Assembly (NCBI GenBank): GCA_937951485.1
Contig: CALEDJ010000056.1
Coordinates: forward strand, 1 to 23,765
DNA length: 23,765 nucleotides
Direction of reading: 5' to 3'
Source: an uncultured bacterium
GTDB taxonomy: Bacteria > Hydrogenedentota > Hydrogenedentia > Hydrogenedentales > CAILVY01
The notes under the pieces were generated by a model. The model was given only the letters and a program-made list of their open reading frames with translations. It had not been told where the DNA came from and searched no databases. Made by a program: the position numbers and the translations under genes. Below are positions 1 through 23,765 of the stretch, piece after piece. Numbering within the stretch: the first letter of the stretch is position 1; every line of letters begins with the position of its first letter.

Positions 1-330
1 CTCTTTTGAATTTCCCGCAGCCGGCGCGGATGCCCGCAGCCGCGGTCCGCAATAAGGACAGGCTGAGTATTCCCGGGACAAATCCGCGCCAACATCTCCA
101 GCACCTCCCTTTCCGCGGCGAGATTGTCCGTTGCGCAGAAAACGCCAGATGCGTTTTATGCAGTGTTTTGCCGCTATTTCCCCCGACATGGCCCGTCCTG
201 ACGCCAATACCCCAACCCCCTTCATCAACAGCGCGGCGCTTACGATGGCCGCCAACGTCCCGGCCCGCGACAAGCGCATGTCTTGTACATTGGCCACTAT
301 CCGTGTCAGAATCCTGATCGTGGCGTACAT
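1..330 (-). pseudogene. IS4-like transposase, N-terminal part, frameshifted and cut by the window edge
   Basis: Reading leftwards from an ATG at 330, preceded by a GGAGGG ribosome site seven bases upstream, the first 67 codons give a basic N-terminus with RIVANVQDMRLSRAGTLAA and IKRIWRFLRN. This resembles the N-terminal region of IS4-type transposases. After about position 129 the likely coding frame moves by one base. The shifted frame reads DNLAAEREVLEML and then PVLIADRGCGHPRRLREIQ, where IADRG resembles the first catalytic Asp of the DDE domain. The original frame also stays open but reads as meaningless sequence. One extra G at 128/129 explains the change, so the copy is probably dead unless this is a sequencing error or a programmed shift. 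The rest lies outside the window. The family call is from motifs only. Confidence 0.55.
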
Positions 331-454
331 GGTCTTTCCCTCCAAATGGAACTCGATTTCTCAACTTGAGACCATTTTAAGGCAAAAAAGACCATGCGCG
401 CCTTTTATCTATCGCTTCATCTGAAAACTGGGGATCACTGAGGCTGCAACCGGT
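331..454. other. Non-coding flank of the transposase remnant
   Basis: No gene is seen between the transposase start and the phosphofructokinase promoter. The stretch around 421-446 (CTGAAAACTGGGGATCACTG) sits where an insertion-sequence terminal inverted repeat would be expected. The other end is outside the window, so this cannot be tested here. Confidence 0.3.
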
Positions 455-484
455 TTGCAGGGCGGGGACTCCGCGTGCGATAAT
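455..484 (+). promoter_or_regulatory. Candidate promoter for the phosphofructokinase gene
   Basis: TTGCAG at 455-460 and GATAAT at 479-484 are separated by 18 bases. The -10 matches five of six consensus positions and the -35 only three. Transcription would start near 491, giving a leader of about 65 bases. Confidence 0.35.
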
Positions 485-556
485 AGGGTTCCCTGATTAT
501 TCCCTTTCGTTGAACCCCGAAGAATCCCGATAAACGCAACCAAAGGAGTGAATCGC

Positions 557-1774
557 ATGTCGCAAGTGAGCGGAAAAGTACTGATCGCGCAGGGCGGCGG
601 CCCGACGGCGGTGATCAATCAGAGTCTTGTGGGCGCGGCGTTGGCGGCGCGGCAGTATCCGCAGGTCACGCATGTCTATGGCGCGCTGCACGGGGTGCGC
701 GGGGTGGTCAACGAGGAATATGTTGACTTGACGGAAGCGACGACACACAACCTGGAGATGGTGGCGCAGACGCCGTCGTCGGCGCTGCTGTCAACGCGCG
801 ACAAACCGGATGCGGCCTATTGCCACAAGATTTTCGAGGTGTGCCAGGCGCACAACATCAGATATTTCTTCTACATCGGCGGAAATGACAGCGCGGACAC
901 GTGCCGGATTGTCAGCGAGGAATCCAAGAATGCCGGATATGAACTGCGGGTGATCCATATCCCGAAGACGATAGACAACGACTTACGGGTGACGGACCAT
1001 TGCCCGGGCTACGGGTCGGCGGCGAAGTTCGTGGCGCAGGCGTTTGCGGGGGCGAACCTCGACAACCGGGCGATCCCCGGCGTGTACATCGGGGTGGTGA
1101 TGGGGCGGCATGCGGGTTTCCTCACCGCGGCGTCGGCACTGGCGCGCAAATTCCCCGATGACGGCCCACACCTGATTTATCTGCCGGAACGCCCGTTCGG
1201 TAAAGACCGGTTCCTGGCGGATGTCAAGAGGGTTCACGATGAATATGGGCGCTGCGTAATCGCGGTTTCCGAGGGCATTGTCGGCGAGGACGGCAAGGCC
1301 ATCGCGGAACAGTTCACGGGCGGCGAAAAGGACTCGCACGGCAACGTCCAATTGTCGGGCACGGGCGCGCTGGGCGACCTGTTGAGCGAGTGGATAAAGT
1401 CCGGCCTGTCCATCAAGCGCGTGCGCGCCGATACGCTCGGCTACCTGCAACGGAGTTTTTTGGGGTGCGTCAGCGAGGTGGACCAATCCGAGGCGCGGGA
1501 GGTGGGCGAGAAGGCGGCGCACTACGCCATCCGCCACAACCAGGACGGGTCAGTGGCGATCCGGCGCGTGGGCGATTATTCTGTGGAATACTTCCTTACG
1601 CCGCTGGAGACGGTGGCGCGGCTGGCCACGGAAATGCCGGATGAATACATCAACAGTGAAGGTAACGGCGTGACCGAAGCATTTCTGCGCTATGTGCGGC
1701 CGCTGGTCGGCGCGATGCCGATGGTTGCGCGCATTCAGGCGCCACTGGTCGAAAAAATCCTGCACAAAAAATAG
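557..1774 (+). CDS. 6-phosphofructokinase, pyrophosphate-dependent type
   Basis: A cytoplasmic glycolytic/gluconeogenic enzyme of 405 residues that phosphorylates fructose 6-phosphate to fructose 1,6-bisphosphate. The PfkA fold is shown by the N-terminal GGGPTAVIN loop (residues 13-21), GGNDS at 108-112, PKTIDND at 136-142 with the predicted catalytic base D140, and MGRHAG at 182-187. Asp at 111 and Lys at 137 are the two positions that, in this family, distinguish pyrophosphate users from ATP users, which carry Gly at both. The phosphoryl donor is therefore predicted to be PPi and the reaction reversible. ATG 557 is chosen over the in-frame GTG at 548 because AAAGGAG at 542-548 is then spaced eight bases from the start. 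It is monocistronic in appearance, with a 173-base gap before the aminotransferase. The length fits the long bacterial PfkA clade. Confidence 0.9.
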   Translation: MSQVSGKVLIAQGGGPTAVINQSLVGAALAARQYPQVTHVYGALHGVRGVVNEEYVDLTEATTHNLEMVAQTPSSALLSTRDKPDAAYCHKIFEVCQAHNIRYFFYIGGNDSADTCRIVSEESKNAGYELRVIHIPKTIDNDLRVTDHCPGYGSAAKFVAQAFAGANLDNRAIPGVYIGVVMGRHAGFLTAASALARKFPDDGPHLIYLPERPFGKDRFLADVKRVHDEYGRCVIAVSEGIVGEDGKAIAEQFTGGEKDSHGNVQLSGTGALGDLLSEWIKSGLSIKRVRADTLGYLQRSFLGCVSEVDQSEAREVGEKAAHYAIRHNQDGSVAIRRVGDYSVEYFLTPLETVARLATEMPDEYINSEGNGVTEAFLRYVRPLVGAMPMVARIQAPLVEKILHKK

Positions 1775-9299: not shown

Positions 9300-12200
9300 G
9301 TGAAGCGCTTTGTCAGCACTGCGATCAAAGTATGTGTCACGGCAGGCTTGTTCGTCCTGTTGTTCTGGCCGGAATTTTTCGGATTGCGCCCGGACCTCTT
9401 CGGCGGCGTGAAACCCGCCGATGTCGTGCGGGAAGTGCGCGAGGCGCAGGCGCAGCATGTGGTGTTCTGGCTGACCTTCGCGCTGGTGGTGCGGTTGTCG
9501 GGCATGCTCTGCGGCGTACTGCGATGGCGTATCCTGTTGCGGGGACAGGGCTTGCAAATGCCGTTCTGGTACATGGTGCAGAGTTGGTTCGTGGGGCGGA
9601 CCATCGGGATTTTCCTGCCCGGCACCATCGGTCTTGACGGCTATCGCCTCTATGACTCCTCCCGCTATACCGGCGAAGTGATCAAATGCACGACGGTGAT
9701 CGCGGTGGAGAAACTGATCGGTTTCATCGCGCTTACCGGGCTGGTCTTCCTGACGCTGCCCTTCGGCCTTGGCATTCCGCACCTGCGCATCAATCCCGGG
9801 GTCCTGGCGGGCATACTCGCCGTGCTTGGCGCGGTGGTGGCGGCGTTTTTCCTGCTGCTCCTCAATCCGCGGGTGATCCAGGTGCTGGTAGCGGTGCTGC
9901 CCACGCCCGCGGTCGTGCGGGGGAAACTGGACAAATTGGGCGCGGCGGCCACGGCCTACAGCGGCAACCGTGGCGCGCTGCTGCTTGCGGTGTTCTATGG
10001 CCTGATGGTCCATCTGGCGGCGTGCATCATGTATTTCGGCACGATGATGGCCATTCGCGCCTCAAATACCAGCCTTTTCGACATCCTTTTCGCCAGCCCG
10101 CTGATGATCTACGGCACCGTGATTGGCCCCTCCATCGGCGGCGAAGGCATCCGCGAAATCGTGTTTGTCACCCTCTTGGGCGGCAAAAGCGGCGCGGCCA
10201 CGGCGGTGACCTTCGCGCACCTCGGCTGGTGGGTCGGCGATGTGGTGCCGTTCCTGGTCGGCCTGCCGATACTGGCCTTGCGCAAACGGCCCAGCCGGGC
10301 GCAACTCACCAGCGCTCTGGCCAGCGCCCAGCAACAGGCGGCGGGCGCGCCCGCGAAGGATTACCTCCATCTGGGCGCGGAGACCGTGGCGCGGTACCGC
10401 GCGGCGATTTTCGGCAGCGCGGCGGCGGGACTGATTGCCGGCCTGATCGCCGGCGCCATCGTCGGCCTTGGCGAATCCTTCTGGCTCCACCGGATGCTGG
10501 GCGGCCTTACGGAACCGAGTTGCTTCACCTGGGGGCCGCTGGTCTATGGCGTGCTGTTTGCCGCACTCGGCCTGGGCATCGCGGGCGCCCTGATTTTCCT
10601 TTTCCTCCTGCTGGACCGCTTTGCGCCGTGGCCCGCGACCTTTGCCTTGTGCCTCGGCGGGACCCTGGGCGCAGGCGGGCTGGTTATCGGCCTGTGGCGC
10701 GTCCAGCGCGATATTGTAAGCCGCCTCCCGGTGGACGCGCGCGCCGGCCTGGCGCCCTATGTCCAGACCGCGATCGTGGCCGCGCTCGCAGCGTTGATCG
10801 CCGCCGTGGCGGCCTTTGTGGTCGCGCGCGCCGCGCGCGGCGCAGCGGGCCGCAGGTCGCCGGTCGCGCTTATCGCCATGGGGATTGCCGCATACCTGCT
10901 GCTTGTCGCAGGCGGCGCGGCCTTCGGCCGCATCAATGCGCCCGCCGCGACACGGCCTGAATTTGCGCCCAGGTCTGATGTGTCCGGACCCAATATCATC
11001 CTGGTGGCCATTGACGCGCTCCGCGCGGACGTGCTGCGGACCTACGAACCCAACGCCCGGGCCGAGACGCCCGCGCTGAACGCTTTCATCCGGGACAGTG
11101 TGCTGTACCCGCACAGTTTCTCGCAGGCGTCGTGGACCAAGCCCGCCTTCGCGACTATATTCACCGGATTGCATCCCGAAGCGCACGGGGCCACCGGGAA
11201 GGCATCGGTGTTGCCTCGGGGCATCGAAACCCTCGCCGGTCTGCTGGCCGAAGGCGGGTACTACGCCAAGGGCCTGTCCAACAACCCCAACACCACCGCC
11301 GTATTCGGCTTTGATCAGGGGTTCACGGACTACACCGACCTGAAGCCGCGACTGTATTTCTTCGCCGGGCCTTCCGCCGCGCGCCTCTCCATGTACGAGG
11401 TGCTGCGCAAGGGACGGCAGCGCATCGCGCAGCGCCTCAGTTTCCTGCCGGGCATCGGCGGCCTGAACATATATGATTTCTACCAGCCCGCCGAGGCCGT
11501 CACGCGCGAAGCGCTCGCCTGGATTGATTCCGGAGCCGCGCCCGCCGGTGCGCCGTTCTACCTCTATCTGCATTACATGGACACCCACGATCCCTTCATG
11601 CAGCACGACCAACCCGGTGTGGGCTATGCCCGCTCCGTTCTGAGAGAAAACGTGGACCCCGCGCTGGAAGCCCCCATGCGCGAAGCCTACGACAGCGAAG
11701 TCGAATATCTGGACCGCCATCTCGGCGCGTTGTTCCAGGGGCTGAAAGACAGGGGCCTCTACGACGACGCCCTGATCGTCTTTACATCGGACCACGGCGA
11801 GGAATTCTACGACCATGAGGGATGGTGGCACGGATACACGCTCTATGAGGAAATGCTGCATGTGCCGCTGATCATCAAACTCCCCGGAAACCAACATGCC
11901 GGACTGCGTCAGGAAGGCATCGCGCGGCATGTGGACCTCGCCCCCACCATGCTCCACTTCGCGGGACTGCCCAAGGGCGAGAAAATGGAAGGCATCTCCC
12001 TGTTCGGGCCGGACAACGCGCCCGCCAACCATGTCACCGCGTTTTCCTTCGCGCACAATGACTTTGAGGGCAATCTGCTCCGCGCCGTCCGCGCACTCGA
12101 TGCAAAACTCATCCACGCCGAAGCGGTACGCACGCGGGACCTGGCCCCCGTGGAACTGTACGACATCCTCAAAGACCCCGGCGAGCGGGTCAATCTCGCC

Positions 12201-12356
12201 GAAGACCCGGCGCAGGCCGATCGCCGCGCCGCGCTCGAAGGCGTTCTCGAACAGCACCGGCAGGGTCTGCCCATCGCCGAACGCGACACCACGCTCGAAG
12301 CCCCCATGTCCCGCGACCTCGAGGATCAACTCCGCTCCCTCGGATACCTGGAATAG
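9300..12356 (+). CDS. Membrane fusion protein: LPG-synthase-type flippase-like domain plus sulfatase-fold domain
   Basis: A 1018-residue polytopic membrane protein. Residues 1-330 resemble the UPF0104/lysylphosphatidylglycerol-synthase transmembrane domain, with the signature GRTIGIFLPGTIGLDGYRLYD then VEKLIGFIAL and several hydrophobic helices. Residues about 360-555 add further membrane segments. Residues 565-1018 are a sulfatase/alkaline-phosphatase fold: NIILVAIDALRAD with metal ligand D572, SWTKPAFATIFTGLHPEAHG, TSDHGEEFYDHE with D831 and H832, and H844. The sulfatase C/S-x-P-x-R motif is absent; T613 in S-W-T-K-P occupies the nucleophile place. A formylglycine sulfatase is therefore unlikely and a phospho-transferase or -hydrolase more likely. 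The start is GTG at 9300, with GAGGA nine bases upstream. The C-terminus is QLRSLGYLE. It probably modifies or moves a lipid-linked envelope component; the substrate is unknown. Confidence 0.8.
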   Translation: MKRFVSTAIKVCVTAGLFVLLFWPEFFGLRPDLFGGVKPADVVREVREAQAQHVVFWLTFALVVRLSGMLCGVLRWRILLRGQGLQMPFWYMVQSWFVGRTIGIFLPGTIGLDGYRLYDSSRYTGEVIKCTTVIAVEKLIGFIALTGLVFLTLPFGLGIPHLRINPGVLAGILAVLGAVVAAFFLLLLNPRVIQVLVAVLPTPAVVRGKLDKLGAAATAYSGNRGALLLAVFYGLMVHLAACIMYFGTMMAIRASNTSLFDILFASPLMIYGTVIGPSIGGEGIREIVFVTLLGGKSGAATAVTFAHLGWWVGDVVPFLVGLPILALRKRPSRAQLTSALASAQQQAAGAPAKDYLHLGAETVARYRAAIFGSAAAGLIAGLIAGAIVGLGESFWLHRMLGGLTEPSCFTWGPLVYGVLFAALGLGIAGALIFLFLLLDRFAPWPATFALCLGGTLGAGGLVIGLWRVQRDIVSRLPVDARAGLAPYVQTAIVAALAALIAAVAAFVVARAARGAAGRRSPVALIAMGIAAYLLLVAGGAAFGRINAPAATRPEFAPRSDVSGPNIILVAIDALRADVLRTYEPNARAETPALNAFIRDSVLYPHSFSQASWTKPAFATIFTGLHPEAHGATGKASVLPRGIETLAGLLAEGGYYAKGLSNNPNTTAVFGFDQGFTDYTDLKPRLYFFAGPSAARLSMYEVLRKGRQRIAQRLSFLPGIGGLNIYDFYQPAEAVTREALAWIDSGAAPAGAPFYLYLHYMDTHDPFMQHDQPGVGYARSVLRENVDPALEAPMREAYDSEVEYLDRHLGALFQGLKDRGLYDDALIVFTSDHGEEFYDHEGWWHGYTLYEEMLHVPLIIKLPGNQHAGLRQEGIARHVDLAPTMLHFAGLPKGEKMEGISLFGPDNAPANHVTAFSFAHNDFEGNLLRAVRALDAKLIHAEAVRTRDLAPVELYDILKDPGERVNLAEDPAQADRRAALEGVLEQHRQGLPIAERDTTLEAPMSRDLEDQLRSLGYLE

Positions 12357-15956: not shown

Positions 15957-18809
15957 CTATCCGGCGCGTATCTCTGCCGGCGCCGCTCCTGCGCAGAATC
16001 CGTCTTCTGTACCCTGTTCCGGACAATGATAATAGCCGCCGGCATTGTAGAACTGAATCAGCCGCAGAAGTTCAGACAGACTGATTTGCCAATTTTGCGG
16101 GTTATAGTCCGAAGCGTGCGGCGCACACAGATGGTTTGCGCCGGCTCCCGGTATATAACCATCTTCCGTATCGCCTGGAGAATCAGCGCAGTGGTAGCCG
16201 TTGGAGTTGAAGAACTGGATCACACGCAAGAGTTCTGACAGGCTGATTCTGTTGTCGCCATCCCGATCAGCGCTATGGTATGCCGGCTCTCCCGCTCCCT
16301 CACCTTCACCTTCCCCCTCGCCTTCGCCTTCACCTTCTCCCTCGCCTTCACCTTCCCCCTCGCCTTCGCCTTCACCTTCTCCCTCGCCTTCACCTTCCCC
16401 CTCGCCTTCGCCTTCCCCCTCGCCTTCACCTTCCCCCTCGCCTTCCGTTGCATCGAATCGTTTCATCACTTGAAGGCCGCCTTCGTCTTTTCCGGCGACA
16501 TAGAGGTGAAAGCCGTCCGGCGAAACTGCGGCGGCGGCGGCCCCGCGCAAGGCGGTGAAACCGTTCTGATTGTCATAATCTGCGCCGAGAAAGATCAGCC
16601 GCCCTGTGTCGGCGTTTTTCTGGAAGGTGGTTACCGCGTGCGAGAGACTCGCGGGGATATAGGCATACGCGCTGTCAGGCGCCCAGACGCCCGGCAGATG
16701 CCCGTTCATGCCGACAATGCCGCCGACATTGTGTCGGTACTGCTCCAGAAAAAGCAGCGTGCCGGTGGCGAGGTTGCGCTGATATACATTCAGATAAGTG
16801 CTTGTGGTCACCAGCGCAGTACCTCCATCGGGCGAAGTGATGAGGCCTTGGAGGCCTCCCCAGGCAGGGTCCGACATCATGGAAACAAAAGTCAACGCGC
16901 CGTTGGCGGGATTGCGGGAATAGATGTTAATGGCGAAACTGCTCAAAGCGGTGACGTAGACATGACTGCCGTCGGGGCTGACCGTGGCGCGGGTCGGCGT
17001 CATCAATTGGTCGGGACCTGCGCCACTTTCCCGCACCTGAACCAACGTCAGCAGCCCCGACCCGGCGATTCGGGAAAACACGTTGACAGCGTTGGACTGA
17101 TGAGAAGTGACATAAAGGTGCGCGCCGTCCGGCGAACATGCAATAGATGACGGGCGCTTCAGTCGGTCCAGGTTATCTTGTCCGTTCAGGTAGATTTTAA
17201 GAAAGGTAATGCGGCCGGTGTCGGCGTTGCGTGAAAACACGGTCACTGCGTCATCGAGATAGCCGGCACAATAGAGATGGGCACCGTCGGGCGCCACGCA
17301 CAGGCTGCGGACATTGCTTATGCCGCGGATGCCGGGGTTGTTGTTGAATACGCTTTGCACATGGGTGAGCCGGCCCGACACAAGATTGCGCGCGAACACG
17401 ACTATCGCGCTGTCCTCTTCTGAGCCGGCATAGACATGTCTGCCATCCGGCGACATGGCGACAGCAACGATGCCTTCAAGCCCCGGCGGCCCGCCGATGC
17501 CGTCGCGCACCTGTTCGGAAAGAATGACCTGGCCTGTGGTCAGATTGCGCCTGAAGTGAACTACCGCGTCATCCCCCGCGCCGCACACATAAATACTGCG
17601 CCCATCCTGGGAACATGCCGTGGTCCAGGCCATTTTCAGGCCGCCCACGTCGCGCGCTTCAAAAAACGTGGCGAAGTGCGCCAGGTCACCGGTGTCGCTG
17701 TTGCGCGAGAGCACCACCAGGGCCGCGGGCTCAGCCGTGCGGTCCGGGTTGCCGCCGGCGACGGTGTATTCCGCCTGCTGGCACACCGCCAGCAGGTGGT
17801 TGCCGTCCGGCGTCAACGTGATGCCCCGCACTGCGCTCATTCCGGGAACCTGCACCGCATCGTATTCGTAATGCAGCACATCTTTGACATGGGTGAGCAT
17901 CCCTGTATTCGCGTTACGCGCATAGATCACGACCGCATCCCCGTCAAAGGCAGACACATAAACAAAACGCCCGTCGGCGGATATTGTCACGCCATAAGGC
18001 TTGAGCAGCCGGGCGGGGCCGCTGAGATACGTCGCCAACGGCGACAAATCCCCCGTCTCCGCATCCCGTGCCCACGCTGTCAGCGCCGATGCGCCCATCC
18101 GCGCCACATACACATGCTTCCCATCCTGCGACAGCGCCATGCCTGCCGCACCCGTCATGGCGAGCGTATCCTCGAAACGCTGCACAAAATGCAGTTCTCC
18201 CGAAACGATATCCCGACCGAAAACCGCGCCGCCCTTGTCGCTCATGCTTGATACATAAACATGCTTCCCGTCCGGAGAGACCACTATCCAATGCGGATCG
18301 GCCATCCCGCTTATCCCCTCAAAGTGGTTTAAATACGTGTCCAGGAAAACCAGGCGACCCGTCGTCATATCGCGTTCAAAAGCAACCACCGACCGGCTCC
18401 GCGAACCGCATACATACACATGCTTGTCGTCCGGAGAAACAGCGATCCCCCGCGGCCCCATCAACCCCATCACGCCCCCCTCTCCATCCACAAGCACTTC
18501 CGTCAAGGTCAGCACGCCGCTGCCGGAATTCCGGGAAAAAACCGATACGGCATCATCATCCTCCGCACTGACATATAAAAATCTGTCATCGTGCGTGACC
18601 GCCGCGTGCGCGCAACCGTTCAGTCCCACTGCGTCAAAATGCGCTTCCAGCGCGTTCCAATGGCCCGAAGCCGCCATCGCGCCCGGCGTCAACAACGCCG
18701 CCAGCAACCAGACGCCGCAGGTCGCGACGCGACGGGAGCAGTCCGCTCTCCTGCTTTCGAGCCGCCGGACACTCTCAGTCCCTGCTGTGCCTTCATGCCG
18801 TGCCATCAT
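15957..18809 (-). CDS. Secreted double beta-propeller protein with (EG)25 linker and duplicated dockerin-like C-terminus
   Basis: About 950 residues. A long basic N-region and hydrophobic core ([20 protein letters not shown]) form a signal peptide. Fourteen lactonase/YVTN-like repeats follow, each about 50 residues of the form SPDGKHVYV...AVxVFxRNxxTGxLxFL. Fourteen suggests two seven-bladed propellers, and the first 20 mature residues resemble the half-repeat missing from the last blade. Next comes an uninterrupted (EG)25 linker (16445-16296). Then two copies of a calcium-loop/helix unit appear: D850[20 protein letters not shown] and D903[21 protein letters not shown], each ending in a Cys-containing TEDG(Y/F) segment. 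The second loop is degenerate. AGAGGG before 18815 favours starts at ATG 18809 or 18806; 18815 is also possible. It is probably a surface or cell-associated binding protein; enzymatic lactonase activity is not supported. Confidence 0.8.
16296..16445 (-). repeat. Hexanucleotide tandem array encoding (Glu-Gly)25
   Basis: Twenty-five in-frame six-base units encode Glu-Gly. Synonymous codons alternate (GAA/GAG and GGC/GGT/GGG/GGA) in an ordered way. A 42-base higher-order unit at 16303-16344 is repeated exactly at 16345-16386 and partially after that, indicating recent segmental duplication. Unit loss or gain keeps the reading frame. Confidence 0.9.
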
Positions 18810-18815
18810 GCTCAT

Positions 18816-19352: not shown

Positions 19353-22300
19353 ATGAAACAGGGCTGGATTCATGGATTTGCGGCGGCGTGCATGGCGCTT
19401 GCGGGAGCGCTGGCTCCAGCGCCGGCATCGGCGCATGACTACCTCCTGGGCGACAACTGGGCAAACCTGCAGGAACTCGCCGCGGCGATGGAAACAATCA
19501 TGGGCGAACTGATGACGCCGAGCGCAGGACCCGAAGCGGGTTGCAACCTCTGGATCGGCGAATGCGATGTGCCGCCTATCTGGGCGGCCGTCTCCGGCCA
19601 GGCCGGGCCGGGCTGGGTCGGCTATGACCACGGCCGCAACCCGGCCAACAACGCCACGGTCGGCACGGGCATTCTGGATGATCACCATCTGGCCTTGCTG
19701 GATGCCATCCTCGACCCGAACAGTTGCCTCGACGGATTGCATCCGGATGCCGTGGACGCCGTGCGCGCGGCCTTCGCGGCCAATCTCCAGACCGTGATGA
19801 ACACGGAAATGACGGTGCAGCAGGTGCGGATATCGGCGGAACTCCCCTTTCCTCTGCCCAACATAGACCAGCGTGAAGATATCACCACCGGCCGGATGAA
19901 AACCGTCAACCTCGCCGGTCTGTACACCGCCGAGTTCTTCGTGCCGCATCTGTTCAAAGACACTTACAAAGAGGACGGCGTCACCATAGACACCCGGGCG
20001 CTGTTGAGCGAGGCGCATCCTCTGTTGCGCGACGCGCTGGCCAATCTGGGCGCGGCCTACATGACCATCGGCGACTCATATGGCGTCGCCTATTGGCAGG
20101 CCTTTATGGGCCGGCTCGCGCTGAGTTTCGTGGTGGAACTGCTGCCCGGCCTGCTGGCGCAACTCGGCAAGGACGCCGACAATCCCAAGGCCGATGCATC
20201 CTGGGGGATCATGCTCAACGGACTCTCCGAAGAAGCCATCAAAGCATCTCTGGACATCGGTGACACCAAGGCCCTGTGCCCGCCGTGGGGCAACGTGCCC
20301 AATCTCGACCAGACCGTCCGCATCGAGGGCATTGACATCATTGGAACGGTGGATGTGCGCATTCGACTCGAAGATTGGCGGCTCTGCAACACCCTGAACG
20401 GCATGGCCGGCACCTTCACATGCGGTAACTATGTTTGCTTGACGAGCCTGCTGTCCGCCACGGACGGCGGCGATCTGAACGGCGATCTCCGAAGCAATCT
20501 GACATCCTTCCGGGAGGCGGGCGGCGTGCTGGAAGGATTTCTCCACCGCGAGAGCGCCTGGTTCCCCGCCGCGCTGATCATCGCGCAGCAGCCCCAAGGC
20601 AGCGCCGGCGCGTGGAACACCAACGAATTCCCCATTTCCGTGGGCATGGAATACGGCGTCAATCCCACCCATGTCTTCACGTGGTTCACTGGAACTGATC
20701 CCGATAACCTCGCCCAGAACGGCATGCCGTCCAACAGCAGCACGGCGGTCCTGCAGGATCTGGTTCCCGGCGTCAATTACGCCAAAGTCTTTGTGAATGT
20801 GGGCGAAATCTGCGGCACAGAAGCCATCTGGTCGGAGATGGTAGAAATTGATATCCGCCCCCTGGTCATCATCGAGCATCCCCCCGCCGAGGTCGTTCTG
20901 GTGATTGGAGAATTCACCTGGTTGGACCTGGTGGAAGCCGAAATCTACGATTACAGCGGCCTGACCTACCAGTGGTTCCGCCGTCCGGGATTGACCGGCG
21001 AATTCCTGCCCTACGGCGATCCCACCAGCGACGGCAATCTCTTCTTCAACGGGGTGTCCTTTGATGACGCCGGTTATTATTTCTGCCGCGTCACATCCGA
21101 TCTCTACGGCCATTCCGTGGATTCCACGGTGATGCAGGTCTTCGTTTCGGCATATTCCACCAAAATCTACGATGCCTGGGAAGGCGCGGGACCGCAAGGC
21201 GCGCTGATAGTCGCCGACGCCGAAGACACGGAAATCATCATTGACACCGACAACCTCACCCTCAGCATCACGGATGGCCCGGTTTTCACGGGCGAAGAGG
21301 AGATCGGCGTCGCCGTCTTCCGTTTTGAAGAGGTCTATGTGGAATCCGGCGCCGTCTTCGTGTTCGGATCGCGTCCGCTGTCCATCGTTTCCGCAGGCAA
21401 CATGGTCTGGGCGGTGCCGCTCGTGGCGCCGCCGGGACAACTCGGCGGCGGCACGGGCGGCACGGGCGGCGCGGGCGGCGCAGGCGGCGCGGGCGGCGCA
21501 GGCGGCACGGGCGGTCGTGGCGGTTCCGGCGGCGCAGGCGGCGCGGGCGGCAAGGACCTCCTGCACGCCGACGGATGGTCCGGCGGCGCAGGATCGAACG
21601 GCGTCCCGGGGGATGCCGGCGCGGACGGCGGCATGGGGAGCGCCGGGCAACCCGGCCAGGCGGGCGCGCTTGGCTTCGCGGGTCTGGGATCCGGAGGCTT
21701 CGGTGCGCCGGCGGTCGAAAACGATGGCGTATCGTGGGGCTTCGGAGGCACCGGCGGCTATCGTCCCACCGGCGCGGGCACGGGCGGCCGTGGTGGCAAC
21801 TATGGAAGATATCTTACCAGCCCCGATGCGGATGCCGGCGGCAACGGCGACCCGGGCCAGGCCGGCGCCACTGCTATCCCCGGCGGCCCCGGCAGGCCGG
21901 GCAACATGGGCGGCAATGCCGAATTCACTGTCGCCGCGGATACGCTGGCGCTTGCCGGCGGCAATGGCGGCGGCGGCGGTTCCGGCGGCGCGGGCGGCGG
22001 CGGTGGCGGCGGCGGTCAGGGCGGCGCAGGGGGCGGCGGCGGCGGGGGCGGTGGTGGCGGCGCCATGGGTTATGTCGGACGCCAGGGTGGCGCAGGCGGC
22101 GGCGGTGGCACGGGCGGGGGCGGCGGGGGCGGCGGCGGCGGCGCGGGCGGCGCGGGCGGTTCCGGCGGTTCGAGCGGCAACATCATGGGTGCGTTCGGTA
22201 TCGCCGGCGCATCCGGCAGCGGCGGCGCAACGCCCCCGAATGGCCCCTCCGGCAATCCATCGTCTTCACGGAATGTCGGCGGCACCGGCGGCGGTGAATT

Positions 22301-23765
22301 CGGCGGCGCGGGTCAGAATCTTGATGTCGGGCTGCCGGCTTCATCCCCCGGTGGTGGCGGCGTTGGCGGCGGTGGCGGCTCCGGCGCGGCAGGCGGCCCC
22401 GGCGGCGCGGGTGCGACCGGCGCAAGCGGCGGCGGCGCATTCATTCTTGCGGCGGCAGGACTGCTGGATGTCTCCGGCGCATTGCTTGACGTGAGCGCCG
22501 CCACGCCGGCATCCGGGCAAAACGGCCAACCCGGCGCACCCGGCAGCGGCGGCGCGCCCGGTGGCGGTGGCGGTGGTGGCGGCGCGCCCAGCCCGCCCGA
22601 TTCCGGATGGAACGGCAGTGGCGGCAGGGCCGGTGCAGGCGGCGCCGGCGGCGCCGGCGGACGGGGCGGCAACGGCGGTACCGGTGGCGCAGGCGGCGCC
22701 GGCGGCAGCGCCGGTCATGGCACGCCCGGCATGGTGAAACTGCATGGCTCGGTAGTGCGCCTGGGCGGCGCTTTGATTCGCGCCATGAACGGCGCAACGC
22801 TCAACGCCGTGCACAGCGGACGGCTCACCATCATTTCCAACATGTATGCGCCGACAGCGGCCGGACCGATGCCCGCCATCGAGGGCGGCATTGTCGCCGG
22901 TTTGACCGACAATCCCCCTGTCCTGACGGATTTCAACCCCTATATCGGCGACCGCACCCCGTTGATTGGCGAATTGGACGATCTGGTGCATTTTTCCGGC
23001 TATGCCGGAACCCACGGCTGGCTCCTTCCCGGTTTCTGGAACGATGTCCATCCCTTCGGCGTGAACCAGGGAATTCAGTTTACGGTTTTGCGTTTTCTTC
23101 ATGGCAAGTCTGCCTTTAACGGATATGATCAGGTGCTGATTCGCAACACCAATCAGAGCGGAGCGATTGACGGTGTCAAGATTCGCATTGCAGGCGGTCC
23201 CGTGCAAAGCATTCAGGGGTTGGGATATCCGGAAGGCCGTCTCCATGCCGGGCAGACCTGGACCACCGTCGTGCCGTCAGGCGCTTCCGTCATCGCGGGC
23301 ATCGCACCGGAAATCACTCCCATTGACGACGCCGTGTTGGACCACGGCGCCCCCTACAGCGTCACCCCCACAGTCACCGGAACCATGCCGATGGCGTGGA
23401 CGCTCCTTGAACCCAGCCCCGCCCCCGGCGACATGACCGTCCATCCCGACACTGGCACACTGACTTGGACCGCCGACTATGCCGCATCCCCGCTCTTGAT
23501 CATCCTTGAAGCGGCCAACGGCGTCGGCACGGACACCGTTTCATGGGGCATCACGGTCCTGCCGCCCGCCGAGGGCGAGGGCGAGGGCGAAGGCGAAGGC
23601 GAAGGCGAAGGTGAAGGCGAAGGTGAAGGCGAAGGAGAGGGCGAAATCGTTTGCTCTCCGATGCCCCTTACCCCGATTCCGCCCGGTCCGGGCGACTTTG
23701 ACTTCTGTGCCGCGATGAACACCGTTTACTGTTCGCTGGAACCGCTGATGTGGCTTTTGCCGGAA
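19353..23765 (+). CDS. Giant secreted Gly-rich surface protein with Ig-like domains and (EG)12 linker (3' end outside window)
   Basis: One frame runs without stop from ATG 19353 to the window end: 1471 codons, partial. AAGGA (19341-19345) is spaced seven bases from the ATG. A signal peptide ends ALAPAPASA at residue 27. Residues 28-515 are of unknown fold. An Ig-like domain spans about 515-605, with Y539-Q-W541 and DAGYYFCR (C578). Residues 697-1126 are extremely Gly-rich (GGAGGAGG, GGGGG), broken by hydrophobic strands such as AEFTVAADTLALAGG and GGGAFILAAAGLLDVSGALL, as in beta-helix or polyglycine-II structures. A beta-rich region follows, then a He_PIG/cadherin-like domain (about 1327-1400, with TGTLTWTADY). 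An (EG)12E linker at 1407-1431 precedes a Cys-containing tail. It is probably an adhesin or envelope structural protein; no enzymatic motif was found. Confidence 0.8.
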   Translation, partial: MKQGWIHGFAAACMALAGALAPAPASAHDYLLGDNWANLQELAAAMETIMGELMTPSAGPEAGCNLWIGECDVPPIWAAVSGQAGPGWVGYDHGRNPANNATVGTGILDDHHLALLDAILDPNSCLDGLHPDAVDAVRAAFAANLQTVMNTEMTVQQVRISAELPFPLPNIDQREDITTGRMKTVNLAGLYTAEFFVPHLFKDTYKEDGVTIDTRALLSEAHPLLRDALANLGAAYMTIGDSYGVAYWQAFMGRLALSFVVELLPGLLAQLGKDADNPKADASWGIMLNGLSEEAIKASLDIGDTKALCPPWGNVPNLDQTVRIEGIDIIGTVDVRIRLEDWRLCNTLNGMAGTFTCGNYVCLTSLLSATDGGDLNGDLRSNLTSFREAGGVLEGFLHRESAWFPAALIIAQQPQGSAGAWNTNEFPISVGMEYGVNPTHVFTWFTGTDPDNLAQNGMPSNSSTAVLQDLVPGVNYAKVFVNVGEICGTEAIWSEMVEIDIRPLVIIEHPPAEVVLVIGEFTWLDLVEAEIYDYSGLTYQWFRRPGLTGEFLPYGDPTSDGNLFFNGVSFDDAGYYFCRVTSDLYGHSVDSTVMQVFVSAYSTKIYDAWEGAGPQGALIVADAEDTEIIIDTDNLTLSITDGPVFTGEEEIGVAVFRFEEVYVESGAVFVFGSRPLSIVSAGNMVWAVPLVAPPGQLGGGTGGTGGAGGAGGAGGAGGTGGRGGSGGAGGAGGKDLLHADGWSGGAGSNGVPGDAGADGGMGSAGQPGQAGALGFAGLGSGGFGAPAVENDGVSWGFGGTGGYRPTGAGTGGRGGNYGRYLTSPDADAGGNGDPGQAGATAIPGGPGRPGNMGGNAEFTVAADTLALAGGNGGGGGSGGAGGGGGGGGQGGAGGGGGGGGGGGAMGYVGRQGGAGGGGGTGGGGGGGGGGAGGAGGSGGSSGNIMGAFGIAGASGSGGATPPNGPSGNPSSSRNVGGTGGGEFGGAGQNLDVGLPASSPGGGGVGGGGGSGAAGGPGGAGATGASGGGAFILAAAGLLDVSGALLDVSAATPASGQNGQPGAPGSGGAPGGGGGGGGAPSPPDSGWNGSGGRAGAGGAGGAGGRGGNGGTGGAGGAGGSAGHGTPGMVKLHGSVVRLGGALIRAMNGATLNAVHSGRLTIISNMYAPTAAGPMPAIEGGIVAGLTDNPPVLTDFNPYIGDRTPLIGELDDLVHFSGYAGTHGWLLPGFWNDVHPFGVNQGIQFTVLRFLHGKSAFNGYDQVLIRNTNQSGAIDGVKIRIAGGPVQSIQGLGYPEGRLHAGQTWTTVVPSGASVIAGIAPEITPIDDAVLDHGAPYSVTPTVTGTMPMAWTLLEPSPAPGDMTVHPDTGTLTWTADYAASPLLIILEAANGVGTDTVSWGITVLPPAEGEGEGEGEGEGEGEGEGEGEGEGEIVCSPMPLTPIPPGPGDFDFCAAMNTVYCSLEPLMWLLPE
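21439..22730 (+). repeat. GGC-rich triplet repeat region encoding polyglycine
   Basis: Dense GGC/GGN codons with interspersed GCG, ACG and TCC encode Gly-Gly-X runs through residues 697-1126 of the giant protein. The low complexity makes it prone to slippage and assembly collapse, and it generates many spurious Pro/Arg-rich open frames on other strands. Confidence 0.8.
23571..23645 (+). repeat. Hexanucleotide array encoding (Glu-Gly)12-Glu
   Basis: Twelve in-frame GAR-GGN units plus a final GAA. It is similar in unit and peptide to the array in the divergent propeller gene but shorter, and without the 42-base higher-order unit. Confidence 0.9.

Follow-up and report, generated by a model that had tools for sequence, protein, structure and literature searches.

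The window analysed here comprises 23,765 bp and is the complete contig C56 of a 77-contig genome of Candidatus Hydrogenedentota. At its right end, a very long reading frame with a Gly-rich centre runs off the contig. The locus raises the question of whether this frame is a real gene and, if so, what kind of protein it encodes.

An open frame at the contig end

The frame starts with an ATG at position 19353 on the forward strand and continues without a stop to position 23765 (1471 codons), as the earlier note had stated. Its 5' end is complete and its 3' end is cut by the contig. Residues 1-27 (19353..19433, +) form a predicted signal peptide, MKQGWIHGFAAACMALAGALAPAPASA, which is followed by HD in a cleavage-like site (APASA-HD). 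Export of the protein is indicated at this level. The frame is real, since homology spans the N-terminal domain, the Gly-rich module and the post-Gly module. In a GC-rich repeat region, where Pro/Arg-rich antisense frames are also open, a spurious frame has to be considered, and the long antisense ORFs at 20076-21650 and 22341-23246 would fit it. This explanation has practically no probability left. It is refuted by the existence of homologues, whose conservation across the phylum is seen at the protein level, and the signal peptide and the codon-position GC of 0.68/0.56/0.75, which resembles that of coding DNA, also stand against it. We conclude that 19353..23765 is a real, incomplete gene, predicted to encode a very large exported protein.

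Gene callers normally output partial genes at contig edges. Therefore, contrary to what the earlier note had expected, the frame would not be missed for want of a stop. The frame never closes because the assembly breaks at a repeat. The final 141 bp of C56 are identical to positions 1-141 of contig C63 and also to the last 141 bp of contig C29, and this overlap probably reflects a repeat, common to these contigs, at which the de Bruijn graph was broken. The window being the whole contig, it has no DNA downstream of 23765; in C63, the frame is carried on through a tail domain and reaches a stop after codon 348 of that contig, 301 codons past the common stretch. If C63 is the true partner of C56, the full protein has about 1772 aa. 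The join is putative, since C29 could just as well be the contig that lies upstream of C63.

The common 141 bp lie across the boundary between an EGEGEG linker and the tail. This (Glu-Gly)n linker (23570..23645, +) is encoded by a (CGAAGG)n repeat detected by TRF and is followed by the start of the C-terminal tail domain (23646..23765, +), which continues on C63. Linker-like DNA has more than 80 match places in the genome, and the linker probably breaks the assembly systematically. Among 41 related loci from GTDB genomes, 23 show a frame without an upstream stop in the available DNA, mostly at a contig end; genes with the module are often cut in assemblies. As a separate observation, contigs C4, C38, C42, C34, C24, C43 and C10 of the same genome (G000) have EGEGEG-type DNA at their first bases or close to them.

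Conservation and predicted fold of the Gly-rich module

The Gly-rich part is a conserved unit of about 700 aa and not random low complexity. Residues 691-1130 contain 46% Gly and show a clear GGX period, with an autocorrelation of non-Gly residues of 0.52 at lag 3 and about 0 at lags 1, 2 and 4. In all 19 aligned modules the lag-3 value is 0.37-0.53, compared with a maximum of 0.12-0.24 after shuffling. Hydrophobic strands are kept before, within and after the Gly-rich stretch, and many of their columns are hydrophobic in 95-100% of the modules. These conserved places are residues 775, 858-867, 1030-1047 and 1127-1135; residues 775, 858, 865 and 867 are hydrophobic in 94-100% of the 17-18 sequences aligned there. 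The Gly-Gly-X pattern and the hydrophobic strands of the earlier note were thus recovered, whereas a regular spacing of the strands was not, since they occur at a few fixed places only. A disordered region whose homologues do not keep the strands, which that note had named as the outcome speaking against its proposal, was not found as far as the strands are concerned. Mean pairwise identity is 43% in caps and strands, 19% in non-Gly loop columns and 88% in Gly columns, a contrast between caps and loops that is partly built in because loop columns were chosen by their Gly content.

None of the 19 modules matches any Pfam model at E ≤ 0.1, Beta_helix included, and no match to the Gly-rich module was found in NCBIfam or PHROG. 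Sequence searches of the PDB gave only compositional matches of the collagen or linker type and weak Ig matches. The Gly-rich part is a new module, absent from the libraries queried.

For structure prediction, AlphaFold2 was run on the 19-row alignment; both models described here derive from the same 19 sequences. The model of the protein has a mean pLDDT of 73.5 and a pTM of 0.67, with confident strands in the N-cap, at 1029-1046 and at 1127-1161. The N-cap and first coils of the predicted beta-solenoid (residues 605-697; 21165..21443, +; GVAVFRF...GSRPLSIVSAGNMVW) are kept in all 19 modules and modelled as beta strands with pLDDT 79-97. Gly-rich loop 1 follows (residues 698-1025, 328 aa; 21444..22427, +), with tandem GGC-type repeats in its DNA (TRF) and hydrophobic return points at 775 and 858-867. 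The solenoid is then taken up again by the strands GGGAFILAAAGLLDVSGALLDVS (residues 1026-1049; 22428..22499, +), whose hydrophobic columns are 95-100% conserved in the 19 sequences and which reach pLDDT 89-97. Gly-rich loop 2 (residues 1050-1122, 72 aa; 22500..22718, +) comes next. The post-Gly module (residues 1123-1318; 22719..23306, +; profiles A2/A3) appears to hold the last solenoid coils (GTPGMVKLHGSVV...SGRLTIISN) and then an Ig-like beta cap, the latter assigned from VIA matches of model residues 645-727 to Ig-like folds.

The predicted confidence within the loops is uneven. It is 81-97 beside the core and about 30-68 at the tips. In loop 1 it is high at 696-715, low at 726-745, high at 756-785, lower at 786-835, high at 836-895, low at 906-995 and high again at 1006-1025, and loop 2 runs from high through low to high. 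Two of the stretches in which confidence recovers contain the conserved hydrophobic positions 775 and 858-867. Loop 1 may thus leave the core and come back about three times, and loop 2 once. Indel density shows no correlation with pLDDT. The loops may well be disordered at their distal tips.

The model strands on both sides of the Gly-rich loops match the K2-2 tailspike in VIA (Z 6.2, 137 residues, model positions 15..593, 4.5 Å). A second model, of the naturally short relative L102, repeats the strand pattern and gives Z 6.1 to K2-2 and CBA120 TSP4, with its Gly-rich loops below pLDDT 50. Unrelated structures can also reach a VIA Z of about 6; Foldseek gave no match in the PDB at E ≤ 0.001 and no significant match in BFVD. 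Together with the strands kept in 19 modules and their beta structure in both models, these matches favour the Gly-decorated beta-helix of the earlier note, and one beta-solenoid broken by two Gly-rich loops of 328 and 72 aa is moderately supported by the predictions. Polyglycine-II is a rare fold, with the snow-flea antifreeze protein among its cases. Packing of this kind is plausible for the Gly-rich stretches, because they have the GGX period and because those predicted with confidence next to the core are assigned to neither helices nor strands in the model, as polyglycine-II would be. This reading comes from secondary-structure strings and pLDDT, and the loops are of low confidence in the second model.

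Distribution, partner domains and tails

With the post-Gly profile, the module was detected in 25 of 68 genomes of the phylum, in 1-9 copies each, and it is missing from the other 43. A scan of 84,980 GTDB species genomes with a single peptide pattern gave the 41 loci mentioned above, all with titles naming Candidatus Hydrogenedentota, Hydrogenedentes or Hydrogenedens, or an unnamed bacterium. The module has so far been found in one bacterial phylum, and because of the single pattern its absence elsewhere is only indicative. No relative was found in phage, plasmid and viral contigs. In the genome studied here, the module also occurs on C32, twice on C2, on C51 and, in part, on C68. These paralogues have the module in common, while their remaining domains are swapped.

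The N-terminal domain (residues 28-415; 19434..20597, +) forms a family of its own, defined by profile matches and by a paralogue on C14 with 30-32% identity. It has no PDB relative by sequence. Profile matches occur in 23 of the 68 genomes, all of which are also positive for the Gly-rich module (Fisher p 4e-16 over 68 genomes, with shared ancestry ignored). Both units lie in one ORF in G016:C219, G010:C84, G004:C146 and G043:C394, as judged from ORF lengths and coordinates, and were seen directly in one ORF in L104; their order varies among those relatives. The C14 paralogue (L124:3419-8881) combines the same N-terminal domain with Ig, HYR and Bact_surface_Ig-like domains and a membrane tag, lacks the Gly-rich module, and contains a right-handed Beta_helix-like region (Pfam E 2e-4, below the cut-off).

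The earlier note had also proposed Ig-like and He_PIG-like domains. The Ig-like domain (residues about 505-600; 20865..21152, +) matches V-set and Ig_2 below the Pfam cut-off here, is 41% identical to a segment of L092 (E 1e-17) and is clear as Ig_3 in paralogues. The He_PIG-like beta domain (23307..23569, +) is recognizable at motif level only, with no He_PIG match in Pfam up to E = 1.

A 14-letter stretch of the tail has 38 matches in the genome, among them the divergent neighbour at 15957-18815. The continuation on C63 scores 21.6 against flexitail (NF041520; cut-off 40) and 21.9 against EF-hand_5 (cut-off 25.9). Among 37 GTDB relatives with a visible 3' end, 30 end in a hydrophobic stretch with Arg/Lys, as counted with a loose regular expression, and three have the EF-hand-like tail. 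Many relatives (L081-L121) end in [V/I]P-x-GxxGL, a hydrophobic stretch and RRRK, a recurrent C-terminal tag without an NCBIfam match in the paralogues scanned. Exosortase (PF09721) was considered as the sorter of relatives with a membrane tag and rejected, as it does not track the Gly-rich module: genomes of families f5 and f8 carry the module without PF09721, and many others have only a weak partial match. No literature was found that joins Hydrogenedentes with glycine-rich proteins or exosortase.

Proposed function and comparison with known systems

On balance, we slightly favour a modular exported surface adhesin in which a solenoid with Gly-rich loops displays variable binding tips. The Gly-rich part would form a parallel beta-solenoid, with two long Gly-rich excursions breaking into its turns. 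The GGX stretches beside the core would pack as polyglycine-II-like rods, come back to the core at a few conserved hydrophobic positions and carry, at a distance from the solenoid, tips that are variable and in part aromatic. Ig-like domains would serve as stalk and spacer. The EGEGEG linker and EF-hand-like tail would fix the protein to the cell, a task that in most relatives would fall to a membrane-spanning tag ending in Arg, and we infer anchoring by either tail. The ligand of the tips would be a glycan or surface, whose recognition would suit tips that vary on a rigid Gly scaffold. Export, the Ig domains, the putative anchoring tails and the variability of the loop tips point to an adhesin or matrix protein, and adhesion is probably the function.

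Two other explanations have to be weighed. The Gly-rich loops could be flexible disordered spacers or a hydrated matrix of silk- or mucin-like type, with only the caps folded and no particular binding. The low confidence of the distal parts (pLDDT down to about 30, and below 50 in the L102 loops) agrees with this, and the GGC repeats in the DNA suggest expansion by slippage. However, hydrophobic return points kept in 94-100% of the sequences, a GGX period in all relatives and confidently modelled Gly stretches beside the core stand against it, and we regard this explanation as possible, though rather unlikely. It is still less probable that the protein is a structural component of an S-layer or envelope, in which solenoid and Gly sheets self-associate into a coat. 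A coat would be in keeping with the number of copies per genome, the size of the protein, its Ig-like repeats and the common anchoring tails, whereas 1-9 paralogues with differing partner domains are not uniform, and the module is missing from 43 of 68 genomes.

The working model for the adhesin reading is a phage protein. In gp38, the long-tail-fibre adhesin of Salmonella phage S16 (a polyglycine sandwich), an experimental structure shows a beta-helix with turns extended by polyglycine-II, and its variable loops have been proposed to bind the receptor (PMC6851490). The two Gly-rich extensions of gp38 have 18 and 77 residues, compared with 328 and 72 aa for the loops of the predicted solenoid here. 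The Gly motifs of gp38 (about 50% Gly) are parted by variable segments, and here, too, sequence with 43-47% Gly and a lag-3 period keeps its Gly columns while the rest varies. In contrast to gp38, the protein described here is cellular, carries a signal peptide, lies amid Ig-like domains and has about four times more Gly-rich sequence, and its polyglycine-II packing is hypothetical. No homology to gp38 or other phage proteins was found by tblastn in 50,697 phage records, in viral contigs or in PHROG. Gp38 is not among the VIA matches listed, which excludes nothing. The structures that come closest to both models are pectate-lyase-like and tailspike parallel beta-helices (K2-2 TSP, CBA120 TSP4 and WceF; Z 5-6); unlike these, the predicted solenoid has very few coils and is interrupted by long Gly-rich loops, and no sequence relation was found.

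Mycobacterial PE_PGRS proteins offer a second precedent, by modelling of their PGRS domains as polyglycine-II sandwiches (PMC10216338). Like the protein described here, they are surface proteins in which long GGX stretches contain few hydrophobic residues. The protein here differs in phylum, in its signal peptide, in its EF-hand-like or membrane-tag C-terminus and in the conserved predicted solenoid strands that flank the Gly-rich stretch on both sides, and the PE domain has no Pfam match in it up to E = 1. The N-cap motif G[SN]RPLSI (21309-21416, residues 653-688), just before the Gly-rich stretch, recalls the GRPLI of PE_PGRS, probably by chance.

Most likely, the protein is a modular surface adhesin that represents a new, enlarged form of a structural kind already known. 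More tentatively, and with somewhat less than even confidence, the family may represent giant, phylum-specific cellular adhesins, gp38-like but larger, with a polyglycine-II bundle and hypervariable tips that arose independently of phages and PE_PGRS. Proteins rich in Gly tend to be dismissed as low complexity; in this case, a conserved module that is apparently folded occurs as a multicopy element in about one third of the genomes examined from the phylum. Confirmation of polyglycine-II packing would extend this rare fold to another group of surface proteins in bacteria, and would offer a way to study how a little-studied phylum attaches to surfaces or substrates.

Two other genes of the window deserve mention. 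The product of the divergent neighbour (15957..18815, -) is a predicted exported, lactonase-like beta-propeller with seven blades, in which the EGEGEG linker is found again together with an EF-hand-like tail; this tail carries a double ISLSELLR motif as in the Gly-rich protein. Further upstream, a single ORF (9300-12356, +) combines a sulfatase domain with an LPG_synthase_TM region, an unusual-looking pairing.
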